From Lentilactobacillus parabuchneri DSM 5707 = NBRC 107865 (GTDB lineage Bacteria > Bacillota > Bacilli > Lactobacillales > Lactobacillaceae): DNA of 64,000 bases. Below are positions 1,342-49,067 of this stretch, piece after piece. The position numbers and the translations under genes are program-made. The notes beneath the pieces are model-generated. The model was not told where the DNA came from and did no database searches. It was given only the letters and a program-made list of their open reading frames with translations. The stretch lies in contig NZ_AZGK01000007.1 in the NCBI RefSeq assembly GCF_001435315.1, positions 1 through 64,000 on the forward strand, read 5' to 3'. How positions within the stretch are numbered: position 1 is the stretch's first letter; each line of letters begins with the position of its first letter.

Positions 1342-1388
1342 ACCTAATTTACATTCAGAATAACAATTGATATAATAAAATCTGTTGT

Positions 1389-1476
1389 GGTGAGTTGGCA
1401 GAGTGGTAATGCACCGGACTCGAAATCCGGCGAACCGGCTAATACCGGCGCGCAGGTTCAAATCCTGTACTCACCT
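1389..1476 (+). tRNA. tRNA-Ser (anticodon CGA, codon UCG)
   Basis: An 88-nt class II tRNA. The acceptor stem pairs GGTGAGT with ACTCACC. The anticodon stem CCGGA/TCCGG encloses loop CTCGAAA with anticodon CGA at 1421-1423. A long variable arm (pairing of ACCGG and CCGG) fits serine. The T-arm is GCAGG-TTCAAAT-CCTGT. The CCA end is not encoded. The base after the acceptor stem (position 73) is T, where bacterial serine tRNAs normally carry G. Confidence 0.95.
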
Positions 1477-1489
1477 TAATAACAGTGAG

Positions 1490-1523
1490 GGTTCCATCGA
1501 CATTTGTCGGTGGAACTTTTTTT
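1490..1523 (+). terminator. Rho-independent terminator after tRNA-Ser
   Basis: GTTCCATCGACA and TGTCGGTGGAAC pair (one G-T) around a two-base loop and are followed by seven T residues. Confidence 0.85.
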
Positions 1524-1563
1524 ATTGTCAACGATGACCGCGTCACAGCTGAGCCATTTTGGA

Positions 1564-1608
1564 TAATAAAAAAAGCTCGTTCGCGTTGATAGACGCAAAT
1601 GAGCTTTA
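1564..1608 (-). terminator. Terminator of the apt operon
   Basis: On the minus strand AAAGCTCATTTGCGT pairs with ACGCGAACGAGCTTT and runs into a T-rich tract, directly after the apt stop codon. Confidence 0.8.
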
Positions 1609-1611
1609 ACA

Positions 1612-2130
1612 TTAATATTTCAGCAAAGTAAAGAAATCGTAGTCCTTTACTTTCTCACGACCTTTGAGATCAGACAATTCAATCAAAAATGCGGTCCCAA
1701 CAACAATTCCGCCCAGCTTTTCAACCAGTCGAATTGTTGCATCAATGGTCCCACCAGTGGCTAAAAGGTCATCCGTGACCAAAACCCTTTGACCGGGTTT
1801 AACTGCGTTCGTACGCAAATAGAGAGACGATTTGCCGTATTCCAGTCCGTAACTCTCTTCAATAGTTTCTCCTGGCAGCTTATTTTTCTTCCGAGCTGGT
1901 GAAAATCCAACTCCAAGTTTATAGGCAACCGGACAGCCGACGATAAATCCACGGGCTTCAGGGCCAACAATCATTTCGACATTGCGTTCTCTGGCAAAAT
2001 CAACAATTTTATCGGTGGCAGCACGGTAAACCTCACCGTTTTCAAGCAATGGTGAAATATCTCTAAACAAGATTCCGGGTTCCGGAAAGTCCGGATATGA
2101 AGCAATATATTTTGAAAAATCGATTGACAT
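1612..2130 (-). CDS. apt: Adenine phosphoribosyltransferase
   Basis: A 172-residue type I phosphoribosyltransferase converting adenine and PRPP to AMP in purine salvage. The PRPP-binding loop [11 protein letters not shown] is intact, and the family signatures [14 protein letters not shown] and GPEARGFI are present. I prefer the ATG at 2130: AGGAAG lies about 8 nt upstream and the product begins MSIDFSKY, the usual length. An upstream ATG at 2151 overlaps the recJ stop and has no good ribosome binding site. It is the last gene of lapA-recJ-apt and is followed by a strong terminator; recJ-apt adjacency is common in Firmicutes. Confidence 0.96.
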
Positions 2131-2147
2131 AGTCTTTCTTCCTTTCA

Positions 2148-4478
2148 TCAAACACCCAAACTGTCCTTAACGAATTGAACAAACTCATGCGTATCAGAGA
2201 CCAGTAACTTTTTCTCAGTGAGCAATTGTTCTTCCCTCAAGTGATAACTGGGTGCCGACTTTAAATCGCGCGCAGCATAATTGGGATTGAGATTAATAAT
2301 CCGATCCTGAATGGTGATAAAATCCAGTTCCAAGAAAACCTGAACCATAAAAATAATTGTTCGAGCTGATAGGTGCAAGTGTTCTGAAATTTGTTTTAAC
2401 TGCGTTGCAATATTGATATTTGCATGCTCTTTAATGAACCTAAATAGTTTAGCATAAGAATGTCGATCTGGCATCCCTATTTTTGAGACTAACTGTTTTT
2501 TGTACAAATAAAGAATTGTCGTCTGTGGATGAATAACGCCTAAGACCTTGACCAGATCAGCCGTAGAATCCGGGCAGTCGACAATGTAAACTTTGCCCTG
2601 ATCAAGTGTTTTAAGCTCATTTTGATCATACATCACCGCTTGAGATTCCGCTGATAAATAGTGCTTTAACTGGTCTCGAACTTTCTCATGGAAAAACACG
2701 TACGTTCCAGAATTGGCAAACATCTGCTGATGTAATTGTCTGGTTCGCCGATCCACAACTGGTGGCAATGCTTCCCGCATGTCGTCAACCATGAGCTGAA
2801 CGGTCGTATGATTATTCCAGGTGTTCTCTCCAACCTCACCGACGACTTCCAATTGAGATGCACCCTGCTCCAATTCTGAAGCAAATTCACCCTTACCAAA
2901 GGCAATCGCAGTTAAGCGGTTTTGCCCGGCGACCAACGAAAATTTAAGGTGGTCTTTGGTCTTGCCCAACGTTTTGATGTCTGAAAGACGGTCGTACTTG
3001 AGCTTAAAAATTGGTTTGGGATTATCCTGACCAAACGGTGCTAAAGCTTTCAACTGATCACATAGATCCGTAGTGGCCTTTGAAACCGGTAAGACCGCTG
3101 AAATTTCCAGCTGCGGTTTAACTGACAAATCCAAATGCTGTTGCTTGGCGGCCGCTTCCAGCTGATCCTTTAATACACCAATTTTATCCTGCTTAATCGT
3201 TAAACCAACCGCTGAGTGGTGACCACCAAATCCAACCGTCTGGCTGCGAATCGGATCAATTGCCTGAAACAGATCAAAACTGTCAACACTTCGACCGGAG
3301 CCCTTGACCTCATCGCTGCCATCAGCCCCCGTCATTACGAGAGTTGGTCGCTGATACTTATCAACCAGGCGGCTGGCAACAATGCCCAAAACGCCCTGGT
3401 GCCAGTTCTCGCCGACAACCACCAGAGTCGACCGATTTTTAATATCACCAGAGGATTCGACCGACGCCACCGCTTCACTATAAAACTGATCCACGAGCGA
3501 CTTTCGCAAATCGTTTTGCTGATTGGCAAATTTAGCCAATTCGGAAGCTCGATCCTCGTCAAATGTCGATAGCAGTTCAACACCAACTGTCGCATCTTTA
3601 ATTCGACCGAGTGAGTTCAACCGTGGGGCAATCCCAAAGCCAATATCCTGTTCGTCAAATTTTGAAAGATCAATCCCAGCTTCCTTAATGAGTGCGATTA
3701 GCCCAGGGCGCTGACTATTCTTAATCGCTTGAACGCCAAATTTGACGATGGCCCGATTCTCATCTCTCAGTGAAACAATGTCGGCCACAGTTCCGATCGC
3801 AGCTATGTCCAGCAAATCAGATGGAACATCATCCATTAGTGCCTGGGCAACTTTAAAAGCAACGCCGGCACCACATAAATCACCAAACGGATAGGCATTC
3901 CCATCAGCGTCTTTTACCCGTGGATGAATAATGGCAAAAGCATCCGGTAAAACTTCGGGCAAGGAGTGATGATCTGTTACCACAACGTCGCATTTTAACT
4001 GATTGGCTGCTGCAATTGCATCGTTCCCAGCCACCCCGTTATCCACGGTCACAATCAACGAAGTGCCCTTATCGATAATTGATTGAAATGCGGCAACATT
4101 TGGCCCATAGCCCTCGGAAAAACGATTGGGAATGTAATAGTCAACATCTGCTCCCAGGTCACTCAATGTTTCATACATAATCGTCGTGCTGGTAATACCG
4201 TCGGCGTCATAATCACCATAAACGGTGATGTGCTCACCGCTTTCCACTGCTTGTGAAATCCGATCAACACCTTTTTTCATATCATGCATTAAAAAGGGGT
4301 CATGAAAAGAGCTGACCGTTGGATTCATAAATGTCTCCGCCTCGTCAGCCGTTTTAACACCCCGTTGAACAAGCATTGTCGCAATAAACGGGTCGATTCC
4401 GGCATCTTTTGCCAGTTGATCGACCTGTGTGGTGTCGTTTACTTCATGAAATTGCCAGTCATACTTCGAATTGATCAT
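2148..4478 (-). CDS. recJ: Single-stranded-DNA-specific exonuclease RecJ
   Basis: A 776-residue 5'-3' single-strand exonuclease acting in recombination and repair in the cytoplasm. The DHH phosphoesterase motifs are visible: DYDADG at residues 89-94 and VTDHHSLPE near 167. The DHHA1 motif region ([11 protein letters not shown]) follows near 410, then an OB-type domain. A roughly 200-residue C-terminal extension is typical of Firmicutes RecJ, which is longer than the E. coli enzyme. The ATG has AAGGTAG upstream and lies 13 nt after the LapA-domain gene; apt follows about 18 nt downstream. All key motifs are intact. Confidence 0.95.
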
Positions 4479-46002: not shown

Positions 46003-46224
46003 ATGATTTGGAAGGTTTTATATCAACCCAGCAAGAAACAAAGTCCTCGCCGGGAAACAACGCTGTCACTCTATGTCGAGGCCGACACCGAAGTTGAAGC
46101 GCACGCACTCGTAGAAGACAATACCGATTACGAGATTGAGTTCATCGAACCCTTACAGGGTGAACACTTAGCGTACGAACAAAAAGATCCTGATTTCAAA
46201 ATAACGGAGTTTAATACTAAATGA
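46003..46224 (+). CDS. rpoY: RNA polymerase epsilon subunit
   Basis: A 73-residue protein of the RpoY (DUF1447, YkzG) family, a small accessory subunit of Firmicutes RNA polymerase. The sequence begins [19 protein letters not shown] and ends ITEFNTK, typical of the family. AAAGGAG precedes the ATG. Its stop overlaps the rnjA ATG by 4 nt, the conserved rpoY-rnjA arrangement linking RNA synthesis and decay. Confidence 0.93.
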
Positions 46225-47909
46225 AAAAACTAAACGTCAAAAATAACGAAGCAGCTATCTATGGCGTTGGTGGTCTGGGCGAAATCGGTAAAAACACTTA
46301 TGGGATCCAATTTCAAGACGAAATTATCCTGATCGATGCAGGAATTAAGTTTCCTGAAGATGATCTTTTAGGTGTCGATTACGTCATTCCGGACTATCAG
46401 TATCTAGTGGAAAACAAGGACAAAATCAAAGCATTGGTGATCACCCACGGTCATGAAGACCACATTGGCGGTGTCCCATATTTGATGAAAGTTTTAAATG
46501 TCCCGATTTACGCTGGACCGCTTGCGATGGCGCTTATTAAGAATAAATTAGAAGAACACGGCTTACTGAATTCTGTCGAGTTACACGAAGTCAGTGACAA
46601 GTCTGTGCTGAAGTTCCGAAAAATGAAGGTTTCGTTTTTCAGAACCACCCACTCAATCCCAGACACCGTCGGGGTTGCCGTTCATACGCCGGTGGGTGTC
46701 ATCGTCGAAACTGGTGATTATAAATTCGACCTCACACCAGTGACCAACCAGCCGCCTGATCTCCAAGAAATGGCCAAATTAGGTGCTGAAGGTGTCCTCT
46801 GTCTCATGTCCGATAGTACAAACGCTGAACGACCAATTTGGACCAAGTCTGAAAAGTGGGTCGGCAATTCTATCGCCCATATTTTCGATAACATTAAAGA
46901 CAGAATCATCTTTGCAACCTTTGCCTCGAACATTTCACGGATTAAAACTGCTTGTGACAATGCGATGGCTCATGGCCGAAAAATTGCCGTATTTGGTCGC
47001 AGTATGGATGCTGCAATCGTCAATGGCCGCGAACTGGGGTACTTGGATATTCCAGACGATGCCTTTGTCGATGCGCATGAACTACAGTCACTGCCTGCCA
47101 ATAAGACACTGATTCTTTGTACCGGATCTCAAGGTGAACCAATGGCCGCCCTTTCACGGATTGCCAACGGAACCCACCGCCAGATTTCGATTCAACCAGG
47201 CGACACGGTTATTTTTTCAAGTAACCCAATTCCTGGAAACACAACGAGTGTCAATAGTGTCATCAACAAGCTTGAAGAAGCCGGCGCAAATGTGATTCAT
47301 GGCCGGGTCAACAACATTCACACTTCCGGTCACGGAGGCCAGGAAGAACAAAAGCTGATGCTTCGCTTAATGAAGCCTAAGTTCTTCATGCCAATTCATG
47401 GTGAGTATCGAATGCTCAAGATTCATACCGAATTAGCTGAGCAGTGCGGGGTTCCGCTGGATCACAGCTTTATCATGCAAAACGGTGATGTACTTGCCCT
47501 TTCAAAAGATACGGCCAGAATGGCTGGTCACTTCACTGCTGGTGATGTTTATATCGATGGCAGTGGAATTGGTGATGTGGGCAACCTTGTTCTAAGAGAT
47601 CGTCAACTTCTTTCAGAAGAAGGAATTGTAGTCGTTGTCGCCACCATCAACTTGGACCACCAGGAAATTCAGTCTGGTCCGGATATCCTTTCACGAGGAT
47701 TTGTTTACATGAGAGAGTCCGGCGAGCTTTTGGACGAAGGCCGCAGAAGAGTCTTTAAGACCATCCGCAAGTCAATGAGAGCAAAGAAGGCAACTGAGTC
47801 TTCTATTAGAAATGCTGTGATTGACGACTTGCAGGAATTCTTGTACACCAAGACTGAACGCCATCCGATGATCTTACCAATGTTAATCATGAATGGTGGT
47901 CAAAAGTAG
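46221..47909 (+). CDS. rnjA: Ribonuclease J1
   Basis: A 562-residue metallo-beta-lactamase/beta-CASP RNase with 5'-3' exonuclease and endonuclease activity, central to mRNA turnover and rRNA processing. The catalytic motif HGHEDHIGG is intact, as are TTHSIPD, GDYKFD, HTSGHGG and HGEYRML. Translation is coupled to rpoY. It contrasts with the degenerate RNase J2 at 24722-26437, so this is the active subunit. Confidence 0.96.
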
Positions 47910-47932
47910 ATTTTGTTAGTTATTAATCAGAG

Positions 47933-48046
47933 AGTGGGACAAACGGTTTTTTGATCCCAGAACTTAAGCCCAGCAATCGATTATTCCTGGTTTTGGAATG
48001 ATTGGTTGCTGGGCTTAAGTGGCAAGAAACAGCCGATTGGCCACTC
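47933..48046 (+). repeat. Structured intergenic element with nested inverted repeats
   Basis: An outer stem GAGTGG (47933-47938)/CCACTC (48041-48046) can enclose two hairpins. The first is GGGACAAA/TTTGATCCC (47936-47959; it competes with part of the outer stem). The second is a 15-bp perfect stem ACTTAAGCCCAGCAA (47962-47976)/TTGCTGGGCTTAAGT (48006-48020), extended by 11 further pairs including G-U to a 7-nt loop. There is no clear T-tract. It may be the rnjA 3' end, a structured RNA or a small repeat element. Confidence 0.6.
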
Positions 48047-48110
48047 CCTTTCTCTACATATGTATTTAGTCAGTTGGTTACTTTCAGCAAAGTTGGGAGC
48101 ATCGTCAGAA

Positions 48111-49067
48111 ATGGAATACTTTATTATTATGAACTTGTGTGCTGGCGGAAATAATGGGCAGAAAATCTGGCCTCAAATCAAGGAACAACTAAAAGCTGCA
48201 CACGCCTCCTATCAAGTTGTCTTTACGGAGTATACCGGCCACGCCGTTCTGTTAACGCAACAACTGCTTTCCAGAATCGATGCCACCCATGTAACTGACG
48301 CCGTCATCATCGCCGCTGGAGGAGATGGAACATTACACGAGACGCTTCTAGGCTGCAAACGTTACTATCACGACCACGCATCGGACCAGCAAGTGCCCAT
48401 TGCTTTTTTGCCAGTTGGATCAGGGAATGATTTTGCACGGGCGGTCAAGCTGCCCCGCCACTGGCAGCAGGCACTCAATAATATTTTAGCCTGCAAACAA
48501 GCAACCATGATCAATGTCGGCCATTATATCGACCTTGATAACCAGATTGATGGCTTCTTCACCAATAATTTTGGAATTGGGTTTGACGCAACGGTCGTTC
48601 ATCTTGCCAACCATTCTTCACTAAAACATCATCGTTTTTGGGGGAAATTTTCATATATAGCGTCTATATTGAATGTCATCATCAATTTCAAAAGCTTCCA
48701 AGCCGATATTCAGCTAGATTCAAACCAGCAGCTAACCTTTAAAAAGACCTTTTTGCTGACGACGACAAATATTCCTTACTTTGGCGGTGGCATCGACATT
48801 GTGCCCGACGCATCGGTCTTAGATCCGAATTTGGATCTGGTCATTGTTGAAAAGCCGAGCCTGTGGCAATTGATTTTATTCATATCTATGCTATTTTTAA
48901 AGAGACACTTGCGGCTCAAATTCATCCACCATTTCAATCAAAAACAATTGGTCGTCCATACACAAGACGATCGGTTGGGTCAAATTGATGGTGAGGAATT
49001 AGGCGAACGGACTTATCATATTAAGTTCGACACCGTTAAGTACCCCTTCTGGATCGGCCACAATTAA
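48111..49067 (+). CDS. Diacylglycerol/lipid kinase family protein
   Basis: A 318-residue DAGK-catalytic-domain protein. The nucleotide-binding motif GGDGTLHETLLG and PVGSGNDFAR are intact, and the C-terminal IDGE is present. Related enzymes phosphorylate diacylglycerol or other lipids (DgkB, YegS, BmrU); the substrate is not determined. I start it at the ATG at 48111. The open frame runs upstream to 48006, but that part lies in the large hairpin and is unlikely to be coding. The next gene starts 32 nt downstream. Confidence 0.87.
   Translation: MEYFIIMNLCAGGNNGQKIWPQIKEQLKAAHASYQVVFTEYTGHAVLLTQQLLSRIDATHVTDAVIIAAGGDGTLHETLLGCKRYYHDHASDQQVPIAFLPVGSGNDFARAVKLPRHWQQALNNILACKQATMINVGHYIDLDNQIDGFFTNNFGIGFDATVVHLANHSSLKHHRFWGKFSYIASILNVIINFKSFQADIQLDSNQQLTFKKTFLLTTTNIPYFGGGIDIVPDASVLDPNLDLVIVEKPSLWQLILFISMLFLKRHLRLKFIHHFNQKQLVVHTQDDRLGQIDGEELGERTYHIKFDTVKYPFWIGHN

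Follow-up and report, generated by a model that had tools for sequence, protein, structure and literature searches.

What is the near-palindromic stretch that separates rnjA from a putative lipid kinase gene, and why does it stand there? An earlier note had described a hairpin of 26 bp at this place and had offered three readings, namely a stable RNA, a processing signal for RNase J at the end of its own transcript, and a dispersed repeat. Here, the window denotes the whole stretch of DNA analysed (64,000 nucleotides), and all coordinates refer to it. A covariance model (R1), built from 19 copies found by BLAST (alignment A2), placed the element at 47931-48044, close to the interval reported before, and matched the window at this sole place, on both strands. 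As shown below, the rnjA hairpin almost certainly belongs, as a single copy, to a family of dispersed, structured repeats in the Lactobacillaceae. The parts of the locus are:

46221-47909, + strand: rnjA (RNase J1-like; gene name from the earlier note), a 562-aa ORF with its TAG stop at 47907-47909.
47931-48044, + strand: the repeat element, a full-length, partly decayed copy (covariance model R1, 108.9 bits, model positions 1-115).
47934-47947, + strand: 5' arm of helix P1, pairing with 48032-48044 (consensus structure via alignment A2; in the minimum fold).
47948-47951, + strand: bulge between P1 and P2, TTTT here and GTTT/GGTT in the family (unpaired positions 18-21).
47952-47958, + strand: 5' arm of helix P2, TGATCCC, with its partner at 48025-48031 (alignment A2).
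47959-47961, + strand: internal loop, AGA side (conserved positions A29, G30, A31).
47962-47987, + strand: 5' arm of helix P3, the 26-bp stem described before (sequence, minimum fold, consensus).
47988-47994, + strand: apical loop TGGTTTT (sequence and minimum fold; G59 conserved in the family).
47995-48020, + strand: 3' arm of helix P3 (sequence, minimum fold, consensus).
48021-48024, + strand: internal loop, GGCC side, GGCA here (positions G91, G92, C93, C94).
48032-48044, + strand: 3' arm of helix P1 (alignment A2 and consensus structure).
48045-48054, + strand: weak pyrimidine tract TCCCTTTCTC, directly 3' of the element.
48111-49067, + strand: downstream lipid-kinase-like gene (putative; name from the earlier note), ATG at 48111, MEYFIIM..., with the ORF listed from an upstream TTG.

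The element starts 21 nt 3' of the rnjA stop codon and is 114 nt long in this copy, its inner part being formed by the 26-bp hairpin. Most of what had been described of this hairpin is confirmed by the sequence: 47962-47976 and 48006-48020 are exact reverse complements, 11 further pairs (three of them G-U) carry this 15-bp inverted repeat to the 7-nt loop at 47988-47994 and thus to 26 bp in total, GAGTGG (47932-47937) and CCACTC (48041-48046) are both there and complementary, and a T-tract is absent, as CCCTTTCTCT comes directly after the stem. The minimum fold is predicted at -59.4 kcal/mol compared to -28.5 +/- 3.6 in shuffles (z -8.5), and none of 200 shuffles was as good. On the other hand, the side hairpin GGGACAAA/TTTGATCCC that had also been proposed can be drawn, yet lies outside the predicted minimum fold, and instead of a branched fold the family consensus is one stacked hairpin. 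The side hairpin appears because the GATCCC strand, which pairs with a far-side GGGATC across the family, has lost this partner in the rnjA copy, where GGGATC has decayed to GCAAGAAACAG and, as judged by eye, 4 of the 7 pairs with 48025-48031 remain. This copy also lacks the tail GTTTCRGCTARRTAA and the downstream terminator, which many Lentilactobacillus copies have.

That the hairpin is a dispersed repeat was borne out by copies in its own genome, the genus and the family, detected by both BLAST and the covariance model. The 114-base query gave 27 BLAST matches in the own genome, corresponding to 22 places after manual merging, and matched 12 of 59 other relatives, every one a Lentilactobacillus. 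With the model, 49 matches at E <= 0.01 were obtained in the own genome among the best 150 candidates, which come to approximately 31 places after manual merging of opposite-strand duplicates; in a near-palindrome, one copy can count on both strands in model searches. Within the genus, 17 of 24 Lentilactobacillus genomes, own included, match the model at E <= 0.001, and the seven without such matches are all <= 2.1 Mb. Matches on both strands among the best 150 candidates numbered 134 in genome G015, 132 in G016, 117 in G010, 116 in G005, 107 in G004, 101 in G006, and one in G009. At the level of the family, matches at E <= 1e-6 among the best 12 candidates per genome were obtained in 76 of 301 genomes, which represent 16 of the 40 genera of Lactobacillaceae searched. 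A search of Rfam 15 at the gathering score returned only a tRNA for the window and no match for 10 loci with copies, and no description of this repeat was found in the literature, with subscription journals mostly beyond the search's reach; the family is apparently undescribed. Plasmids and phages gave no match to the window copy, and plasmids none to a copy from another genus.

Two observations at the margins of the family may be added. The G015 locus L221 is matched by eight plasmid records from other genera of the Lactobacillaceae (73.6-96.3% over 39-110 bases), only at query 186-295 and not in the hairpin; the position of this stretch is that of the downstream terminator, so that the terminator type may itself be dispersed. 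In addition, a sister subfamily that starts with AGTGAGC, has GGAGCTGTCCTA-like ends and is often tandem (L067:1697-1936, L069:1721-1960, L172, L251) gives weak matches to the same model, and for several of these copies the upstream ORF is on the opposite strand.

Across the family, three helices stack into a single long hairpin, P1 with 14, P2 with 7 and P3 with 26 pairs, with a GTTT/GGTT bulge between P1 and P2, an AGA/GGCC internal loop between P2 and P3, and a TGGTTTT-like apical loop. The tail GTTTCRGCTARRTAAYA commonly lies 3' of the hairpin and is followed in many Lentilactobacillus copies by a terminator like GAGGCTGAGNCAAAAG..CTTTTGTCCCAGCCTC; in a strict scan, a terminator was located within 200 nt of 23/98 copies compared to 6/98 and 7/98 in two controls. 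Possible GAGNNTGGGACAAAAG/CTTTTGTCCCAGCCTC ends are seen in some Lentilactobacillus copies and are absent in G015 and in most copies of other genera. Type A copies carry an extra small module inside the 3' side of P1. In G015 and in other genera, some full copies are extended into tandem arrays by one or more extra 3' halves, each with a GTTTCGGCTARGTAA-like tail and, by eye, still complementary to the single 5' half; such arrays occur at L253, L257, L259, L261, L265 and L266 (~1501-1800, in the element's orientation) and in several G015 copies, e.g., L195, L224 and L233.

Alignment of the copies revealed paired changes, and RNAalifold drew the three-helix hairpin. Alignment A2 derives from a manual choice of BLAST hits (A1) by removal of L020, which is truncated, and of five copies of type A. 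In its 19 copies, which were found by BLAST but are the same sequences from which the structure was read, 90.4% of 883 cells are paired compared to 80.5% when shuffled and 27.7-44.0% when slid, and two-sided changes were observed in 30/47 pairs compared to 12.2 in shuffles. Two further sets are mostly model-found and hence biased toward the fold that the model embodies: in 69 copies of exactly 115 nt (four type A copies being left out of the pair counts), 93.5% of cells are paired compared to 70.5% shuffled and 34.7-44.2% slid, with P2 paired in 97.9% of cells, while in a MAFFT alignment of 19 copies from outside the genus (18 family-search loci, 13 of them from one genus, g37, plus one Secundilactobacillus locus) RNAalifold recovered the same fold with 39/45 pairs changed on both sides and pairing kept. 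Two-sided pairs reached 41/47 in the 69 copies, yet also 25-32 when slid, and thus discriminated poorly; it was the percentage paired that discriminated. The existence of the family and its fold is solid, and the changes of the two arms together strongly suggest that the fold is under selection.

Unpaired positions are held constant as well. Among the 69 copies, the bulge keeps G18 in 69, T20 in 66 and T21 in 67, with position 19 variable; the AGA side keeps A29 in 67, G30 in 68 and A31 in 69, and the GGCC side G91 in 65, G92 in 69, C93 in 67 and C94 in 59, whereas in the apical loop G59 is kept in 65 and positions 58, 60, and 61 vary. Together with the strong covariation, these constant bases support the structured-RNA option raised earlier, as far as aligned copies can. 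The P3 arm (columns 39-51) shows an identity of 0.56 within and 0.37 between genomes, and P2 plus the loops 0.90 and 0.81, respectively; since P3 identity is higher within genomes than between them, the copies suggest bursts or homogenisation within species.

Whether the fold is selected as RNA or as DNA is the next question. REP elements with TnpA and attC sites are hairpins that a transposase or recombinase recognises as DNA, and the present fold could likewise be selected as a single-stranded or cruciform hairpin for such an enzyme, in which case copies would stand at gene ends only because they are harmless there. The near-palindrome, with its model matches on both strands, is consistent with this, and so is the look of the tandem arrays, whose 3' halves complementary to one 5' half resemble, by eye, products of replication. 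The earlier argument that G-U pairs rather than mismatches in the helix hint at selection on RNA holds in part: in A2, G-U exceeds A-C by 62 to 19 cells, but 27 of these 62 lie in two pairs, without which the count is 35 to 19, and the eight host-genome copies without those two pairs give 14 G-U to 15 A-C, a balance that again fits selection as DNA. A count of 122 to 25 in 65 model-picked copies comes from a model that itself favours G-U. The G-U excess moderately favours the sense strand, and strand-biased deamination could contribute to it; as proof of an RNA role the asymmetry was rejected as too weak.

The position of the copies relative to genes bears on the same question. Gene context was counted from ORFs of at least 80 aa called by a simple script, around high-scoring copies of G000, G005, G006, G015, and G016 plus one G022 copy, and the resulting set of 98 copies holds one per place from 197 model matches after dropping duplicates, opposite-strand matches and the weak match L016:1171. 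Of these, 48 lie between convergent genes, 25 are sense and 19 antisense between co-directional genes, five are in divergent gaps and one is undetermined; 73/98 stand behind a same-strand ORF. Adding 18 of 21 new other-genus loci from the family search (116 copies) gives 88 behind a same-strand ORF, 75 of them within 60 nt of its stop, and 28 with an opposite-strand ORF upstream. The median gap from stop to copy is 8 nt for convergent and 6 nt for co-directional copies, and 13 of the 88 begin inside the TAG stop itself (start at -2). Gaps of at least 30 bp used for comparison were convergent, divergent, and co-directional in numbers of 5/5/23 in the window, 28/29/37 at the 15 closest rnjA loci and 7/28/37 for the other gaps in element loci, the last excluding gaps with listed copies, which lowers its convergent share; divergent gaps thus make up 5/33, 29/94 and 28/72 compared to 5/98 for the copies.

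Selection of the fold as DNA, with location by harmlessness alone, can account for part of this pattern: scarcity in divergent gaps fits purifying selection, and the 19 antisense among 44 copies between co-directional genes are not predicted by a purely sense 3'-UTR role. However, the pile-up of starts at the stop codon goes beyond what harmlessness needs, only one strand defines the constant unpaired bases, usually that of the upstream gene, and neither the own genome nor G006 has a Y1 transposase. We take this explanation seriously, although we think it is probably not the right one.

At the rnjA locus, occupied and empty sites can be compared between species. RnjA has its best matches, 98% identical, in Lentilactobacillus otakiensis and also L. 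kefiri (tblastn), and 13 of the 15 closest loci (14 titled Lentilactobacillus and one Lactobacillaceae MAG) have no copy at the site. L. otakiensis, L. kefiri, and L. sunkii have a plain terminator there, with flanks similar to those around the window copy, while in L. rapi a full copy sits inside the arms of a plain terminator and in L. dabitei (L067) a 5' piece only is followed by other sequence. In the last ~100 bases before 5850 of L067, the copy breaks off in the P3 5' arm at a sequence that starts with GGCTCTTCGTCAACTG and resembles the end of an insertion sequence, perhaps an ISL3-like one.

A regulatory or processing element specific to rnjA would explain why the element stands 21 nt behind the rnjA stop and why L. 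rapi has a copy at the same site, but many unrelated genes are followed by copies and most of the closest rnjA loci do without one. The proposal of an RNase J processing signal on its own transcript finds no support in view of the same two observations, and we regard an rnjA-specific role as extremely improbable. A long but ordinary intrinsic terminator of rnjA is suggested by the terminators of close relatives at the same place and by the closing stem GAGTGG/CCACTC with CCCTTTCTCT behind it; yet the T-tract is absent here, the other copies examined have GTTTC-like tails instead of T-tracts, and termination would need neither the conserved internal loop nor the bulge, which makes this reading very doubtful.

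Seven further orthologous sites (S1-S7) were found by eye to be occupied in some genomes and empty in others, the empty ones mostly having a plain terminator that a short spacer separates from the stop codon. At S1-S4 and S6, the terminator of the empty genomes was not recognised by eye 3' of the sense copies, and near-identical terminators accompany copies of one genome at different sites. At S1, opposite-strand copies of G006 and G022 adjoin a plain terminator, the G022 copy at S6 is antisense, the terminators of empty genomes at S7 resemble the copy's own, and in L. parakefiri a copy stands directly behind an intact terminator. Loss of the native terminator sequence is a judgement by eye between species that are far apart and whose terminators drift fast. 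The distance between these species is also too large for their sites to reveal a target-site duplication or an exact excision, and neither was seen.

What might move the element was approached through four enzyme families. The Y1 transposase (PF01797) is absent in G000, G006 and G008 and occurs in 3/15 genus genomes searched (G005, G010, and G011). G006, a genome of 2 contigs and completeness 100 with 101 matches, lacks Y1 (PF01797), IS1182 (PF13751), reverse transcriptase (PF00078) and IS110 (PF02371) alike. The Y1, IS1182, reverse-transcriptase and IS110 families were rejected as the mover, since none of them tracks the element across genomes.

Of these, the IS1182 family deserves discussion, as the repeat could be a MITE that depends on the transposase of IS1182-family insertion sequences. 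The related IS1272 reportedly replaces target stem-loops without duplication (PMC5678879), and replacement of this type would explain why native terminators are often not found at copies and were not recognised behind most sense copies examined. Moreover, one IS1182-family insertion sequence of the genus has inverted-repeat ends GAGGCTGGGACATAAGTCCC, which resemble GAGNNTGGGACA at the start and GTCCCAGCCTC at the end of Lentilactobacillus copies, a Lentilactobacillus IS1182-type element having GAGGCTGGGACA ends, and of the five genomes out of 24 with the IS1182 transposase (PF13751), own genome included, four (G000, G004, G005, and G016) carry 46-132 matches. In contrast, the fifth, G009, has PF13751 but one match, and PF13751 is absent from G006, G010, G015 and G022, which carry 51-134. 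Furthermore, the GGGACA start is lost in G015 and most other-genera copies, and S7 terminators without any copy also bear ACAAAAG/CTTTTGT, so that the likeness of the ends may be convergent. We therefore consider descent from IS1182-family elements quite unlikely. Separately, IS1182-family insertion sequences in L324 (~168-1863) and L321 (~1388-3184) have inverted-repeat ends like GAGGCTGGGACATAAGTCCC and GGGGCTGTGACATAAGTCCC, and these resemble common terminators of these species (GAGGCTGGGACAAAAG..).

On balance, we favour, with modest confidence, a non-autonomous mobile 3'-UTR element that is selected to fold, its mobility and RNA role being what we infer from the copies. The element would spread in a MITE-like manner and insert into or next to terminator hairpins or replace them, and an inserted copy would then be transcribed as 3' UTR, where the hairpin may form the end structure of the transcript and a barrier to 3'-5' decay, often bringing a terminator along. 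The constant AGA/GGCC internal loop and the GTTT bulge could be read by a putative protein. At rnjA, the copy occupies the position of the plain terminator of close relatives and is at the beginning of its decay, with P2 largely lost. An RNA-level mechanism at the 3' end has in our view a little less than an even chance, which the copies that adjoin a retained terminator have lowered. A more far-reaching version, a portable 3' UTR shared across the Lactobacillaceae, would have a mobile RNA module home to gene ends, sometimes to the stop codon itself, and displace the native terminator, such that many unrelated mRNAs receive a common 3'-end structure read through the internal loop by one putative protein, and might even let it move via the 3' end of an mRNA; this we find unlikely as a whole.

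If the favoured reading is true, dozens of mRNAs, perhaps about 100 in some species, would share a covarying 3'-end structure that is gained and lost between species, and a mobile element would be rewriting transcript ends genome-wide. Sister species with the same gene, with and without the element, would then offer a natural experiment on 3'-UTR function in lactobacilli. The element could also serve as a marker family for Lactobacillaceae genomes, and among repeats missing from Rfam 15 it would be one with clear covariation.

Several known systems invite comparison. REP elements are dispersed hairpins at gene ends, far shorter than the lactobacillus element; the arrangement of REP/BIME with RAYT (TnpA-REP) is alike in the dispersed gene-end hairpins and differs in that the Y1 transposase is absent here from the own genome and G006. 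Intrinsic terminators share with the element the place behind the stop codon, but are unlike it in that it measures 115 nt, has no T-tract of its own, conserves unpaired motifs and has homologs across genera. ERIC is an imperfect palindrome with internal insertions, to which the type A module may be compared. RU-1 is 127 bp long, has many intergenic copies and is MITE-like (PMC2759123). With IS1272/IS1182, the likeness lies in the hairpin target that is reportedly lost on insertion (PMC5678879), for which the rnjA site and the seven further sites may be compared; unlike the element, IS1272 carries its own transposase, and the distribution of the IS1182 family does not follow that of the element. 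Likened by description, the ERIC/RU-1 (IRU) repeats of Enterobacteria are similar to the present family in size, many intergenic copies and MITE-like character. Hence, the family resembles ERIC/MITE elements in kind, and is set apart from them by another phylum, by starts at the stop codon, by the terminator positions of relatives that it occupies and by its constant internal loop.
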